From Chloroflexota bacterium (GTDB lineage Bacteria > Chloroflexota > UBA11872 > VXOZ01): a stretch of DNA of 64,000 nt. The notes under the pieces are model-generated. The model was not told the origin of the DNA. It made no database searches and saw nothing but the letters and a program-made list of their open reading frames with translations. The position numbers and the translations under genes are program-made. The stretch covers positions 386,915 through 450,914 of the forward strand of contig CATQHC010000002.1 in assembly GCA_958295775.1 (NCBI GenBank), in the 5' to 3' direction. Positions 34,394 to 48,317 of the stretch are shown piece after piece; the first letter of the stretch is position 1, and each line of letters starts with the position of its first letter.

Positions 34394-36136
34394 ATGCTTG
34401 CTAATCGGGGGCGAATTCTCGCGGCTGCTGAAGGCGGCGATCGGGAGGCATTTCTTGGGCTTTACGATCAGTTCTGCCCAATGCTCTATCGCTTCTTCTT
34501 CTGGCTCACTGGAAACGAGAGTGAGGCGCGCGAGCTTGTAGTTGCCACTTTTCGCCGGGCCTATGGCGCGTTCCGCAAACGGCCGCGCACCATGGTACTA
34601 GACACCTGGTTTTACCGGATGGCGGTAAAGACTTTCCTGGCATCCGCGCGCTGGCAGAGGCTGGTCCGCCGCGCGCCGGGTCCGGTGGAGTTCGAGGACC
34701 GCACCATGGACTGGCGCAGGGCTGTGATTGCGCTGCCGCCGCGCTTGCGCGTCGTTTTGCTGCTCATCCTGGCTGAAGGCATGCCGCAGAGCCAAACGGC
34801 AGAGGCCCTTGGCGTTTCGCTCGAAAGAGCTGAATCCTTGTTTGAACGGGCCCGCGCGGCGTACCGCCCGCCGGATCCGGACGCCGACCGTCCAGCAGTC
34901 GAGCGCGTCATGCGCCAATTGCGTGCGCCTCGTCCCGGCGCGACGTTGCGAGCTGAGGTCGCTGCCGCGCTTGGCGCCGGCGACACTTCGTTGAGAATTC
35001 GGCTGCTGCAGGGCGGGATTGGGCTGATGGTGATCTTGCTCGCGGTGTCCGTTGGTTTTTCTCTCTTTCGCGGCGATGAGGAATCAGTGGCGTTACCGGA
35101 AGGGGCCGATGCCGAGCCAAAAACAATTGTTGTGCTTGGTACGGCTGACATTGGTGCGCTCCTCGCCTTCAATGCCAACGACTTGAGACCGTCGTCCCTC
35201 ACGGGAGTGGGTAATGTGCCGCGGGCACTCGCCCTCACTGCGGATAACAAGACTCTCTATGTCTTACAGGAAGACGGGCTACTCACCGTAGATGCACAGT
35301 CGCAACAAGTGGGCCCCATAGTTCAGTTGCCGGACCAGGACTGGAGCAGTTTGGCGGTTACGGGACTGTATGTGGTGCTTGGCTCGCACACTGCGACATC
35401 GCTCGTGACAATTGATGAAAGCAATGAGCTCTTGACAGACATTCCTCTCCCGTGGTCGGTTGACAGGCTGATGCCGCTCAGTGAGAGCGCCGTCCTTGCC
35501 GTGGCGACCGACCGAACGCAAATGGCGCGCGTTACATTGGATAACCAAACCGTGGGTGACGCCATAACCATTGGAGCTGGCTTGGTGATAGGCGCGGTTG
35601 TGCTTGCTGCTGATGGGCTTGCCGCCTACGTGACCACACCGGAGACTGACGAGATTTGGCGTGTTGATCTTGATTCGAGTCAGGTCATTCTCTTTGCTAC
35701 CACTCCGGCTGCTCGTGCCACGTATGGGCTACTCAGCGAAGACGGCGCAATCCTCTATCTGGGCAGCGAAGTGGGACCGATTGCCGATGAGCCAAGCGAA
35801 GACAGTGCTTCAGAGAGTTCGGATGTAAAGAGCAGTGTCCCGCCAAGCAAGGATTCATCAGAAGAGAATTCCGAGAATGAGGAGGCGGCAGAAGAGCCAG
35901 CGGCACCTGCGCTCTCGATGATAAATACGGTTGACGGCAGCGTGGAGCGTCAATTGTGGCAAGGCGGCGGCATCACCCAGATGGCTCTGGATCCTGAAAG
36001 AAACATCCTCTACGCCCTAGCACCGCATGCACGTGCGATTCTTATTTTGGATTCGCGCACGTTTCATGTGCGCAACGTAGTGCCGCTGCCAATGCGTGCC
36101 GTGATGTTCACTCTCGTAGCAAGTGAGACTAACTAA
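34394..36136 (+). CDS. ECF-type sigma factor fused to transmembrane segment and extracytoplasmic beta-propeller
   Basis: A 580-residue protein. Residues about 15-85 match sigma-70 region 2 (REAFLGLYDQFCPMLYRFFFWLTG, then FRRAYGAFRKRP) and 104-157 match region 4 (IALPPRLRVVLLLILAEGM...TAEALGVSLERAESLFERARA). A single membrane helix spans about 206-225. The remaining ~350 residues form repeated YVL/LYVLQ blades of a propeller outside the cell, interrupted at about 464-505 by an acidic Ser/Glu-rich linker. A typical ECF sigma is ~180 residues with no membrane part. No separate anti-sigma gene is adjacent, so the propeller may act as a built-in sensor. That last step is inference. Confidence 0.87.
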   Translation: MLANRGRILAAAEGGDREAFLGLYDQFCPMLYRFFFWLTGNESEARELVVATFRRAYGAFRKRPRTMVLDTWFYRMAVKTFLASARWQRLVRRAPGPVEFEDRTMDWRRAVIALPPRLRVVLLLILAEGMPQSQTAEALGVSLERAESLFERARAAYRPPDPDADRPAVERVMRQLRAPRPGATLRAEVAAALGAGDTSLRIRLLQGGIGLMVILLAVSVGFSLFRGDEESVALPEGADAEPKTIVVLGTADIGALLAFNANDLRPSSLTGVGNVPRALALTADNKTLYVLQEDGLLTVDAQSQQVGPIVQLPDQDWSSLAVTGLYVVLGSHTATSLVTIDESNELLTDIPLPWSVDRLMPLSESAVLAVATDRTQMARVTLDNQTVGDAITIGAGLVIGAVVLAADGLAAYVTTPETDEIWRVDLDSSQVILFATTPAARATYGLLSEDGAILYLGSEVGPIADEPSEDSASESSDVKSSVPPSKDSSEENSENEEAAEEPAAPALSMINTVDGSVERQLWQGGGITQMALDPERNILYALAPHARAILILDSRTFHVRNVVPLPMRAVMFTLVASETN

Positions 36137-43661: not shown

Positions 43662-44939
43662 CTACGGTTCAGCTTGCCACTCCAATTCCAGATTGCCGAT
43701 GACTACGGTGCTGCCGGCCCGCGCGCCCGCTTTTTCCAATTCCGCTGTGATACCCATGCGGTCCAGACGTTGTTGGAAAAAGAAGACGCCGTCGAGACTT
43801 GACAGGTCGGCCATGGCGGCGAGCCGTTCCACCGTTCTCCCACTTACCACGAAGTCTTCACCGCGACGGGTTACGGCAAAGTCATCGGCGACTGGAACTA
43901 CAATCTCGGCAACGTCAATGGCGGTGGCTGCGTCTGCCGCTATCGGAGTCTCGCGATACGTATGGAATGCCCTGCCGAGAAGGTCATCGATGCCCTGTCC
44001 CGACACTGCAGAGATACCAACCACGGGAAAGCCTTCAGACTCGATAGCCGGCCTGGCGTCTTCAAAACGGCTGCGGGCTTCGGTGACGTCGAGTTTGTTG
44101 AGAGCCACAATCTGAGGTCGATCCAACAGCGTAGGGTCAAACTGCCGCAGCTCTTCATTCACTTGGTGAAAGGCGGCGACCGGATCCGCTTCTACCAGCG
44201 ATGCGCAGTCTACTAAGTGAAGCAAGAGGCGCGTGCGCCGAATGTGGCGCAGAAACGTGTGCCCGAGGCCGGCGCCGGTATGCGCCCCGGCTATAAGACC
44301 GGGGATGTCGGCAAACACCAATGTCGCATTGCCCCGTTGTACCACGCCAAGTTCCGGCTGCAGGGTCGTGAAGGGATACTCAGCTACTCTGGGTCGGGCT
44401 GCGCTAATCCGCGCCAATAGCGAAGATTTGCCGGCATTTGGCAGGCCGACGATGCCTACGTCGGCAATGAGTTGCAACTCCAGGTCGAGCCAGAATTCTT
44501 CAGGCGGCTCGCCTTTCTGCGCGAATTGCGGCGCCTGGCGTGTTGACGTGGTGAAGTGCACATTGCCGAGGCCGCCGCGACCGCCCCGCGCTGCGAGGGC
44601 TTTGTCACCGGGATTGCGCAAGTCCGCAATGACCCTGCCGGAGTCAACCTCAGTCACGACGGTGCCGGGCGGCACCCACGCCTTAAGGTCTTTTCCGGCT
44701 CCGCCCTGCTTCTTGTTGGTGCCGCCAGACTTGCCGGGATCCGCGACGAAACGACGGGTGCGGTGCAGGAAAAGCAGACTATTGAGGCTGGGATCGACTT
44801 CTAGGTAAACGCTGCCGCCGCGCCCCCCATCACCACCGTCAGGTCCGCCCCGCGGCTGAAACTTCTCGCGGTGGAAATGGGCAATACCATCGCCTCCCTT
44901 GCCGCCTTTAACAAATATGCGTGCTTCGTCATAGAACAT
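43662..44939 (-). CDS. obg: Obg family GTPase
   Basis: A 425-residue ribosome-associated GTPase. The N-terminal glycine-rich Obg fold (1-155) has KGGKGGDGIAHFHREKF and GGPDGGDGGRGGSV; the G domain has GLPNAGKSSLL (G1), YPFTTLQPELG (G2), FADIPGLIAGAHTGAGLGHTFLRH (G3), NKLD (G4) and ISAVSGQG (G5). The last ~75 residues (FAVTRRGEDFVVSGRTVERLAAM...) form the OCT domain. Elsewhere obg often follows rplU-rpmA; here those are absent. The start has no good Shine-Dalgarno site. Confidence 0.98.
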   Translation of the reverse strand: MFYDEARIFVKGGKGGDGIAHFHREKFQPRGGPDGGDGGRGGSVYLEVDPSLNSLLFLHRTRRFVADPGKSGGTNKKQGGAGKDLKAWVPPGTVVTEVDSGRVIADLRNPGDKALAARGGRGGLGNVHFTTSTRQAPQFAQKGEPPEEFWLDLELQLIADVGIVGLPNAGKSSLLARISAARPRVAEYPFTTLQPELGVVQRGNATLVFADIPGLIAGAHTGAGLGHTFLRHIRRTRLLLHLVDCASLVEADPVAAFHQVNEELRQFDPTLLDRPQIVALNKLDVTEARSRFEDARPAIESEGFPVVGISAVSGQGIDDLLGRAFHTYRETPIAADAATAIDVAEIVVPVADDFAVTRRGEDFVVSGRTVERLAAMADLSSLDGVFFFQQRLDRMGITAELEKAGARAGSTVVIGNLELEWQAEP

Positions 44940-45155: not shown

Positions 45156-47186
45156 CTAGGCTGGCGACCGGGGCGCGTCATCGGGCAGAGACGGCAAAGG
45201 AATTCTCGTCACGCCGGTGGGGCTTACTACCCAGAGGTGCGTCTCGCCACGATTAACAAACAAATTGGTGGCAGTGGCAAAGAGGCGGTTGGGGGCCAGC
45301 AGTTGCCGTTGGTACAACCCTTCCGTGGTAACCTGCACAACGCGATCATTTTCTCCATCGAGAATATATAGTGAACCCATGTCTTGACTTATGAATATCG
45401 CTCTTGCTATCCCCAAAGGTGATGGGACGGTAGCATCTATTGAGAGCTCGGTGCGGGCGCCGGAATCATAGCGAGTGATTGTGCCGTCTTGGAACAAGAT
45501 GAATACAGAGCCATCGATCGCAAGGTCAGTGGCCTGCGCCAAGTCCACACCGCTGTTGATACCGAAATATCCTTCGGGCTCGCCGTAGACTCCGCTACCA
45601 ACCGGTCGAAAACGCAACACTTCGCTGCTCCCAGCGTCGAGCAAGTAGAAGTTCTGATCATAGGTAGCGCTTGCGCGCGGTTGCTGAATGGAACCCGCCG
45701 GCAGTTGGGCCGACTGAGGCGCTTCACCGTTTGCTGCAAAGTAGAGACGATTGTCTCGGTCGAGAATCTGAATTACGTCCGCTCTGCCCGTAACGAACAC
45801 TGCGGCGCTTCCGGCCAAACCTTCAGTGCCTGGCTGATAGATAACTTCGTTCTGTCCAGTCGTTTCAATACGGTACACGGCGCCGGAGGACTGATCTAGA
45901 ACGTACACGGAGTTGCTCAATCCATAGATATCACCGGGTTGCTGCCCAGCATCGAAATTGACAAGGACTTGGGGCTCATCTATGTACAGACTTCCTGGAG
46001 CAGCTTCAGCAGGTGGTACGGGTGTCGGCGAGGCCGTCTCCGCTTGTGCGGTAGAGGGAGTTGACACTGTCGTGCCGCTCTGCGAGGGAGTAGCAGCTTC
46101 CTGAGGCTGGATAGTGGCGACTGGTTCTTCAGTTACACTTGCCGATCGATCATCGCCTCCAAAGAGCGCATTTGCGCCAATCACGAGGAGGGCCAACACA
46201 ATCAACACTATAATTCCGGCAGCAACTCTATTCAGTCGTTGTCTGCGTGCTTGGTCGGTCGCAGTGCGGGTAACGATGGTAGATTGTGTCGCCACGCTGG
46301 GGGGAGTTCCGGATGGCGCGCCGGCAGGTTGGCTGCGCGGCCGAAACAGCGATGCCAAGAGCGACCAGCCCAAGACTCCAACGGCCAAGATGACACCAAG
46401 AATTGAAGATGCCACGTTCTCCTTCGGCTGGAACCGGGGCTCGCTCGGAGGATCTGGAGTATCCTCTGAGGATTCTCCTAGCGAAGTCCTCAGTGAAGTA
46501 GCAGTCTCTTTGGCAATGGCAAAGCGCAACATCAGAGCTGAGGCATTGCTCTCGCCGTGCTTCCTTACGGAATCTACCAGACTCTCGGCAGCGGATTGAA
46601 CTTTGTTGCCGACGAGAGAAATCTGGATTTCCTCATCGCTGAGCACAGACCCGACACTATCTGAACAGAGCACGGCGACGTCCTGGGCGTCGAGCGTAGC
46701 TCTGAACATCTCAATGGGGGGCTCCCATTGCGGATAACGCCCCTCTTGTTGGGACCGGGATTCTTGCCCGGCTGCTCGCTCTTGAGCGTCAGGCAGGGCC
46801 GTGATCTGCTCTTCCTGGACAAGATAGAACTGCGTAGGCAAGACCTGCGCGATGGAAGCTCGCCCGTCGCGCACGACTACGGCGGTCATTCCGATATCAA
46901 AGAGAGAGTCCTCAATGCGGGCGTCATAGAGATAGCGGTAGGCTTGGCGCACGCTGCGCAGCAGCGCGGCTTCCGCGGTCTGGGATGCGCTCTCAAAATA
47001 GTGGCGGGCAACTTCTCTGGCGATCGTTCCCGCTGACTCGCTGCTGACCCCCTCGATACTTAAAAAGAGGGAGCCCATGTCCACATCGGAGGAGGCATCC
47101 TGAAAAGTATGTGCCCAAGGGCTGCTTGCCTGGCGTCGATTGCCTACAAGCGCCGCCTGGCCGATCTGTACGGTCAGCACCGGCAC
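45156..47186 (-). CDS. Membrane receptor with degenerate PP2C domain and extracytoplasmic beta-propeller
   Basis: A 676-residue protein. Residues 1-225 follow the layout of a PPM/PP2C phosphatase: SLFLSIEGVSSESAG (usual D-G-M-G-G is Glu45-Gly-Val-Ser-Ser), FDIGMTAVVVRDGRASIAQVLPTQ (usual GDSR is LPTQ), LCSDSVGSVLSDEEI and ESNASALMLRFAI (the final DN pair lost). Two membrane helices lie at about 260-281 and 321-342, followed by a Ser/Thr/Pro linker and a propeller (about 415-670). Metal-binding Asp residues are mostly lost, so the domain is probably inactive. AAGGGGT precedes the GTG start. Topology by charge is ambiguous. Confidence 0.8.
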   Translation of the reverse strand: MPVLTVQIGQAALVGNRRQASSPWAHTFQDASSDVDMGSLFLSIEGVSSESAGTIAREVARHYFESASQTAEAALLRSVRQAYRYLYDARIEDSLFDIGMTAVVVRDGRASIAQVLPTQFYLVQEEQITALPDAQERAAGQESRSQQEGRYPQWEPPIEMFRATLDAQDVAVLCSDSVGSVLSDEEIQISLVGNKVQSAAESLVDSVRKHGESNASALMLRFAIAKETATSLRTSLGESSEDTPDPPSEPRFQPKENVASSILGVILAVGVLGWSLLASLFRPRSQPAGAPSGTPPSVATQSTIVTRTATDQARRQRLNRVAAGIIVLIVLALLVIGANALFGGDDRSASVTEEPVATIQPQEAATPSQSGTTVSTPSTAQAETASPTPVPPAEAAPGSLYIDEPQVLVNFDAGQQPGDIYGLSNSVYVLDQSSGAVYRIETTGQNEVIYQPGTEGLAGSAAVFVTGRADVIQILDRDNRLYFAANGEAPQSAQLPAGSIQQPRASATYDQNFYLLDAGSSEVLRFRPVGSGVYGEPEGYFGINSGVDLAQATDLAIDGSVFILFQDGTITRYDSGARTELSIDATVPSPLGIARAIFISQDMGSLYILDGENDRVVQVTTEGLYQRQLLAPNRLFATATNLFVNRGETHLWVVSPTGVTRIPLPSLPDDAPRSPA

Positions 47187-47435
47187 GTGATACCCCTTCT
47201 GATGAGCTTCGCACCCGTACCTTCTCTTGGCGCATCATAATAGCAGATGTTGCACTCTCTATCAAACCTGGGCGAGGAGATTCCCCGCTGTGGCATCGGC
47301 GTCCTGCAAAACATGAGCATGCGGGGCCGGGAACACATGACCCTTTCCCTCTTGCCGAGGCGGACATTGCTAGGTAACATGGAACATGCAACAATGGCTC
47401 ATCAGTCGAGGTATTGCAACCTAGAGGCAGGTGTT

Positions 47436-48317
47436 ATGGAAAAGGGTACGTGGCTTGTCAAGAGCGGCATGGCACAGATGCTCAAGGGCGGTGTCATAAT
47501 GGACGTTGTCACGCCAGAGCAAGCCAGAATAGCCGAAGATGCCGGCGCAGTGGCCGTAATGGCGCTGGAGCGGGTGCCGGCGGACATTCGCGCCCATGGT
47601 GGCGTGGCGCGCATGTCAGACCCCGAACTCGTCACGCAGATCAAGAATTCAGTTTCCATTCCCGTTATGGCAAAGTGCCGGATCGGGCACTTTGTCGAGG
47701 CGCAGGTGCTTGAGGCGCTGGGTATCGACTACGTTGACGAATCGGAAGTGCTTACGCCTGCCGACGAAGCACATCATATTGACAAGAATGCGTTCACTAT
47801 CCCCTTCGTGTGCGGTGCGAGAGACTTAGGCGAGGCATTGCGCCGTATCGGAGAGGGCGCGGCCATGATCCGGACGAAAGGTGAGGCCGGCACCGGGAAT
47901 GTGGTAGAAGCGGTGCGGCACATTCGTACGGTCAACGGGACAATTCGACGGCTGCAGAATATGCGCCATGAAGAACTCATGGCACAAGCGAAAGAGTTGG
48001 GCGCGCCGTTTGCGCTCGTTGAGGAAGTGGCCGAACGCGGCGCGCTGCCTGTTGTGAACTTCTCAGCGGGAGGCATTGCCACACCGGCGGATGCAGCGCT
48101 CATGATGCAACTTGGTTGTGATGGCAACTTCGTCGGCTCCGGCATCTTCAAGTCCGAGGACCCGGCAATTCGGGCTGCCGCCATAGTGAAAGCGACAACG
48201 CACTTCCAAGACCCGCATATCGTTGCGGAAGTGTCTCGCGGCCTTGGCGAGCCAATGTCCGGCCTCGACGTACGCTCGATGCCGCGCGAAGAACTGCTTG
48301 CCCCACGAGGATGGTAG
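47436..48317 (+). CDS. pdxS: Pyridoxal 5'-phosphate synthase, PdxS subunit
   Basis: PdxS makes PLP from ribose 5-phosphate, glyceraldehyde 3-phosphate and ammonia. A 293-residue TIM barrel with [39 protein letters not shown], the active Lys in [20 protein letters not shown] and [19 protein letters not shown], and [12 protein letters not shown]. The ATG at 47436 matches the family start; the frame runs back to 47247 but that part is not conserved. The stop overlaps the pdxT start (ATGGTAG). Confidence 0.98.

Follow-up and report, generated by a model that had tools for sequence, protein, structure and literature searches.

A widely distributed transmembrane protein of Chloroflexota and Patescibacteria joins a putative pseudophosphatase domain to a predicted NHL propeller

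The window, the 64,000-nucleotide stretch of Chloroflexota DNA analysed here, carries on its minus strand a complete gene for a 676-aa protein that combines a PP2C-like domain, hydrophobic helices and a propeller. The gene lies between obg on its 3′ side (43662-44939, minus) and a divergent pdxS-type gene on its 5′ side (ORF 47247-48317, plus), and its GTG start is found, together with a near-identical N-terminal peptide, in four orthologues of the protein. Its features are as follows, listed from the N-terminus:

45156-47186, minus: complete gene (676 aa, GTG start) for a putative pseudo-PP2C / membrane helix / NHL propeller protein, from the ORF, its relatives and the start common to four orthologues
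46521-47162, minus: PPM/PP2C-fold domain with an incomplete metal site, residues 9-222, from the HMM envelope, PDB profile search, AF2 and fold searches
47052-47054, minus: E45, at the site of tPphA D34 (DGMGG motif), by HMM alignment, with the site number as we take it to be
46836-46838, minus: P117, at the site of tPphA D119 (GDSR replaced by LPTQ), by HMM alignment
46659-46661, minus: D176, at the site of tPphA D193 (SDG motif), the sole metal Asp kept, by HMM alignment
46545-46550, minus: S213-N214, at the site of tPphA D231-N232 (final DN), by HMM alignment with a register uncertain by one residue
46347-46403, minus: hydrophobic helix 1, residues 262-280, which may fall short of a full span, from Kyte-Doolittle hydropathy and charge
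46161-46217, minus: membrane helix 2, residues 324-342, the predicted main span, Arg-rich before and acidic after, from Kyte-Doolittle hydropathy and charge
45933-46157, minus: Ser/Thr/Pro-rich linker, residues 344-418, by composition
45195-45932, minus: six-bladed NHL-type beta-propeller, residues 419-664, from the HMM envelope, AF2, and fold and profile searches

Profile searches and structure prediction identify the N-terminal domain as a PPM fold. Pfam returns no family for the whole 676-aa protein at E ≤ 1, and hence no PP2C, kinase, vWA or NHL match; its PP2C model reaches 1/71 N-domains of the family (described below) at E ≤ 0.01, and the NCBIfam Stp1 match of the window protein is weak (E 1.2e-6, 28 bits against a cut-off of 230). 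Single-sequence phmmer with the window protein matched tPphA at E 3e-4, and a profile of the 71 N-domains (alignment A2) found tPphA in the PDB at E 1.3e-21, PstP at 7.4e-14 and 9.5e-14, and PppA at 1.2e-11. With the AF2 model of the domain built on A2 (pLDDT 92.1, pTM 0.89), PPM phosphatases came top in both Foldseek (tPphA 2j86, E 6.7e-13) and VIA-align (tPphA 2j82, Z 21.8 over 198 residues at 2.9 Å), and PstP was matched at Z 21.2. The first-pass annotation, made from the letters of the window, had assigned a PP2C fold to this region, and the profile and the model bear it out. A chance resemblance to PP2C is rejected on the profile E-value and fold Z score against tPphA.

The gene belongs to a large, unnamed family of transmembrane pseudophosphatase-propeller proteins that reaches far beyond the window. 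Matches occur in 36/41 genomes (the window's own and 40 relatives), and an alignment of 20 such proteins (A1) was the base for scanning a genome collection with one peptide pattern, a scan in which 114 places were confirmed and 80 loci kept (61 Chloroflexota and 19 Patescibacteria by record title, L110 being placed by the tree). Iterated HMMs recovered the N-domain in 70 of these loci, the propeller in 79 and both in 70; ten loci have no row for it: at seven the gene runs off its contig at the N-terminal end (L044, L055, L058, L086, L092, L097, L116), at L061 and L066 the frame is broken or short, and for L070 the wrong frame was picked. Wherever the whole gene is readable among the 80 loci, the order of N-domain, helix and propeller is constant. 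A full-length profile (A4; 45 sequences, match threshold E ≤ 1e-10) was applied to Chloroflexota and Patescibacteria, the two phyla that the counts cover, and matches 246/301 Chloroflexota genomes (168/216 where completeness is 90% or more and contamination 5% or less) and 228/286 Patescibacteria genomes, mostly of 0.5–1.5 Mb; by hand count, 118 of 150 listed Patescibacteria matches cover the two domains with a single alignment (start ≤ 70, end ≥ 640). Four single-contig Chloroflexota genomes of 1.4–1.9 Mb from family f12 (G065, G077, G086, G094) have no A4 match, and this family seems to be a lineage without the protein. Genome G034, from another family, holds a 61%-identical copy on a contig with the window's gene order (L024 / L042) as well as a copy of its own family's type; that contig is probably mis-binned. 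Searches of PMC full texts (subscription papers, preprints and supplements aside) turned up no description of the pseudo-PP2C propeller family, and neither "phosphatase" nor "propeller" occurs in the available text of PMC6744442, PMC10633639, PMC11665869 or PMC12102498.

Judged from alignment, the metal site is incomplete across the whole family and not peculiar to the window gene. Metal sites were read off an HMM alignment of the 71 N-domains to tPphA, whose metal residues we take to be D34, D119, D193 and D231. The window protein keeps one of the four Asp (D176) and carries a Glu, a conservative change, where tPphA has D34. Across the family, the D34 site is D in 12/71 and E in 35/71 N-domains (E or D in 47/71), the D119 site is D in 2/71 and P in 55/71, and the D193 site is D in only 3/71, while a D stands near D231, at the neighbouring column, in 22/71. 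None of the four Asp is retained in 28/71, one in 35/71, two in 8/71 and three or four in 0/71, a generous tally in which a register shift was permitted at the last two sites. The first-pass annotation had described the D-G-M-G-G, GDSR and final DN metal residues as lost, which stands, and had left unmentioned the kept SDG Asp and the Glu at the D34 site; allowing for a register shift did not restore intact metal residues, as even this generous reading leaves no N-domain above two Asp. Pro at the D119 site is found in 55/55 Chloroflexota N-domains and 0/16 from Patescibacteria, where the residue varies, so that the broken site appears to have taken different ways in the two groups. With no complete metal site, the N-domain should not hydrolyse phosphate, and we infer that it is without phosphatase activity; an ordinary active PP2C is rejected on the metal residues, no member keeping three of them.

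The N-domain and the propeller are both under purifying selection, and the region between them is looser. Against four orthologues, pN/pS is 0.23–0.36 in the N-domain, 0.21–0.24 in the propeller and 0.42–0.53 in the stretch between, values that are rough because synonymous sites are near saturation. These low ratios in both domains, together with unbroken frames in the four orthologues, lead us to reject a decaying pseudogene. An incomplete metal site kept by selection supports the reading of the N-domain as a pseudophosphatase of PPM fold.

Hydropathy and charge favour an arrangement with the N-domain inside and the propeller outside. Kyte-Doolittle scans of 71 members place one hydrophobic helix in the interdomain stretch of 37, two in that of 29 and three in that of 5, and predict none near the N-terminus. 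Positive charge is greater before than after the strongest helix in 60/71 members, equal in 5/71 and less in 6/71. The window protein, among the 34/71 members with more than one helix, has an Arg-rich loop between its two helices, so helix 1 may be half-span. The two membrane helices of the first-pass annotation are present as hydrophobic segments, and a two-span topology is doubtful, a single helix being the state of 37/71 members. The same annotation's order of cytoplasmic regulator, membrane and propeller conflicts with two true spans, which would place both domains on one side of the membrane; it fits if helix 1 is not a full span, as the charge bias of the family would suggest.

Beyond the membrane region, the predicted Ser/Thr/Pro linker is evident from composition (37% S/T/P in residues 344-418), and in many relatives its place is taken by a longer stalk that looks helical by eye. 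Model and profile searches identify the C-terminal domain as a six-bladed NHL propeller. The AF2 model built on alignment A3 (79 sequences) has a pLDDT of 94.0 and a pTM of 0.92, and NHL domains are the solved structures closest to it (Brat, Z 26.4 over 258 residues at 3.1 Å), with PknD 1rwi at Z 23.2 (237 residues, 2.9 Å); the sequence profile finds Thin at E 3e-21 and PknD at E 1.1e-11. Pfam NHL is matched at E ≤ 0.01 by 16/79 family members, the window protein not among them. The propeller expected at the C-terminus is thereby given a type, six-bladed NHL, and fold, metal-site loss, helices and propeller model together support the initial description of a membrane-anchored, propeller-bearing pseudo-phosphatase.

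A second gene in the window (34394-36136) joins an ECF sigma factor via a membrane helix to a propeller-like region, and a common signalling design had been proposed for the two proteins. Beyond a shared layout, that proposal found no support. Each of the six genomes in the window's genus has the sigma fusion at full length; outside this genus, the listed matches are confined to its sigma part, residues 1-160. Pairwise BLASTP between the two proteins, propellers included, shows no similarity beyond a short hydrophobic stretch (best E 0.084). On this pairwise comparison and on the distribution of the two proteins, a shared origin has no support.

From the folds, the broken metal site, the helices, the occurrence and the pattern of selection, we incline, if with some reserve, to regard the protein as a non-enzymatic transmembrane receptor or adaptor. 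The N-domain, probably cytosolic given its predicted orientation, would offer a docking surface, probably to a protein of the cytosol. A single membrane helix, in the window protein the second, would take the chain across, and a flexible linker would hold the six-bladed NHL propeller outside, where it would probably bind an envelope ligand. Binding outside would then alter the state or clustering of the inner domain and so transfer a signal. Against the presumed inactivity, D176 and E45 remain in the window protein, and one bound metal is retained by the pseudo-PPMs TAB1 and PHLPP2, according to the available text of PMC12002173.

The main rival to the receptor or adaptor reading is a purely structural role, which fits the same data and which we consider rather unlikely. 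The protein would then be an envelope-assembly or tethering factor, its propeller scaffolding an outside complex (cell wall, pilus or secretion) and its PP2C fold anchoring it to a cytosolic machine, with no signal passed. Its occurrence in most reduced genomes would suit a constitutive part of this kind, as would the genes beside it in some Patescibacteria: directly upstream in L093:3939-6573 lie genes for a SpoIID-domain protein, a protein without a Pfam match and a DUF5657 protein, L099 has a similar order, relatives of the first two upstream proteins recur in L102 and L107, and a type IV prepilin peptidase (Peptidase_A24) is found near the gene in L113, L114 and L120, which are Peregrinibacteria-type loci. 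However, neighbours vary by group. In many sponge-type Chloroflexota (e.g., L046:10778-17191), the next genes downstream encode a MoxR-type AAA_3 ATPase and a DUF58 protein, guaA- or ligA-like genes (named by eye) adjoin it in other groups, and Obg and PdxS do so in the window. Neighbourhoods of the family loci yielded no partner common to all groups, conservation being confined to sub-groups, and we reject the assignment of a functional partner by gene order since neighbours differ between groups and form no conserved operon.

Less probable still, and in our view unlikely, is that the dead PP2C domain acts as a decoy or reader in phospho-signalling, binding the phosphoproteins of Hanks kinases and shielding or sensing them. 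Substrate binding without catalysis has been suggested for the dead PPM PHLPP2 (in the available sections of PMC12002173), and one clear Hanks kinase is encoded in the genome from which the window comes. The same genome also holds a weak PP2C_2 match (261-aa frame) beside a weak Hanks-kinase match (G000:C3:268984-270292; L121, L123), both below the cut-off. The Patescibacteria speak against a decoy. Pkinase is found at E ≤ 1e-5 in 41/286 and PP2C_2 in 28/286 of their genomes, and in the 18 carriers behind named loci Pkinase exceeds the cut-off in 4 and PP2C_2 in 1. Among all carriers, Pkinase is missing from 193/228, PP2C_2 from 208/228 and both from 176/228, hand-joined counts that assume equal handle sets to be the same 286 genomes and that include some false absences, genome completeness being unstated. 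Most Patescibacteria carriers thus have neither a detectable Hanks kinase nor a canonical PP2C, which points to a partner other than the phosphoproteins of that pathway and leaves the link of the family to Hanks kinases weak. Finally, we regard as very improbable an enzyme that stays active by a rearranged metal site, with one metal and Glu in place of Asp: the frequent E or D at the D34 site and D176 in the window protein would suit it, and the uniform Pro at the Chloroflexota D119 site, its variability in Patescibacteria and the scarcity of D at the D193 site argue against it.

The two phyla separate cleanly within the family. A maximum-likelihood tree of 45 sequences, hand-chosen from the 71 rows, splits Chloroflexota from Patescibacteria with support 100/100, and the phylum split takes one change each (0/500 shuffles as low). 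Since this tree is unrooted, its branches are long and its composition is uneven, it is compatible with common descent as well as with a single ancient transfer. Patescibacteria are sister to Chloroflexota according to the available text of PMC11293204, PMC12281837 and PMC12102498, and the shared fused architecture ties the two phyla together in keeping with the phylogenomic relation described in the first two of these. With carriers making up some four fifths of the genomes sampled in either phylum, very small ones included, the protein is a strong candidate for a basic role in the envelope or the cell cycle. It is conceivable, though we would not count on it, that the protein belongs to the core of the Chloroflexota-Patescibacteria lineage as a transmembrane receptor working without kinases, that its phosphatase domain lost catalysis in the common ancestor, and that the need for it preserved it while genomes shrank to about one megabase; if so, loss of catalysis before the phylum split would make it an extremely old pseudophosphatase. 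The family is a test case for a catalysis-free PPM fold in bacteria, and the genetic system for Saccharibacteria (as presented in the available part of PMC10633639) opens a direct test if Saccharibacteria carry the protein.

Among known systems, the protein resembles tPphA and PstP in the fold of its N-domain (Z 21.8 and 21.2) and differs from them in a metal site that is incomplete in all 71 family N-domains. TAB1 and PHLPP2 are alike in having a PPM fold with metal residues lost, but they are eukaryotic and have other partner domains (to our knowledge, neither has an NHL propeller), and the PHLPP loss dates to the metazoan ancestor, whereas here it concerns two bacterial phyla. A scaffold role has been proposed for PHLPP (PMC12002173, available sections). 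The MoxR-vWA-beta-propeller ternary systems (PMC7159879, as far as its text is available) also include a propeller, and many sponge-type Chloroflexota have a MoxR ATPase after the gene; unlike those systems, the window protein has no vWA domain by Pfam and an N-domain of PPM fold, and MoxR is not adjacent in the other groups examined. A similar layout is that of M. tuberculosis PknD (1rwi/1rwl), in which a cytosolic signalling-type domain, a membrane helix and an outside six-bladed NHL propeller follow in the same order, the outside location being predicted by the charge rule for the protein described here. In PknD the six NHL repeats form an extracellular sensor, as laid out in the available text of PMC3140968, and the domain inside is a kinase, whereas the window protein has in its place an apparently dead PP2C domain and no Pfam kinase.
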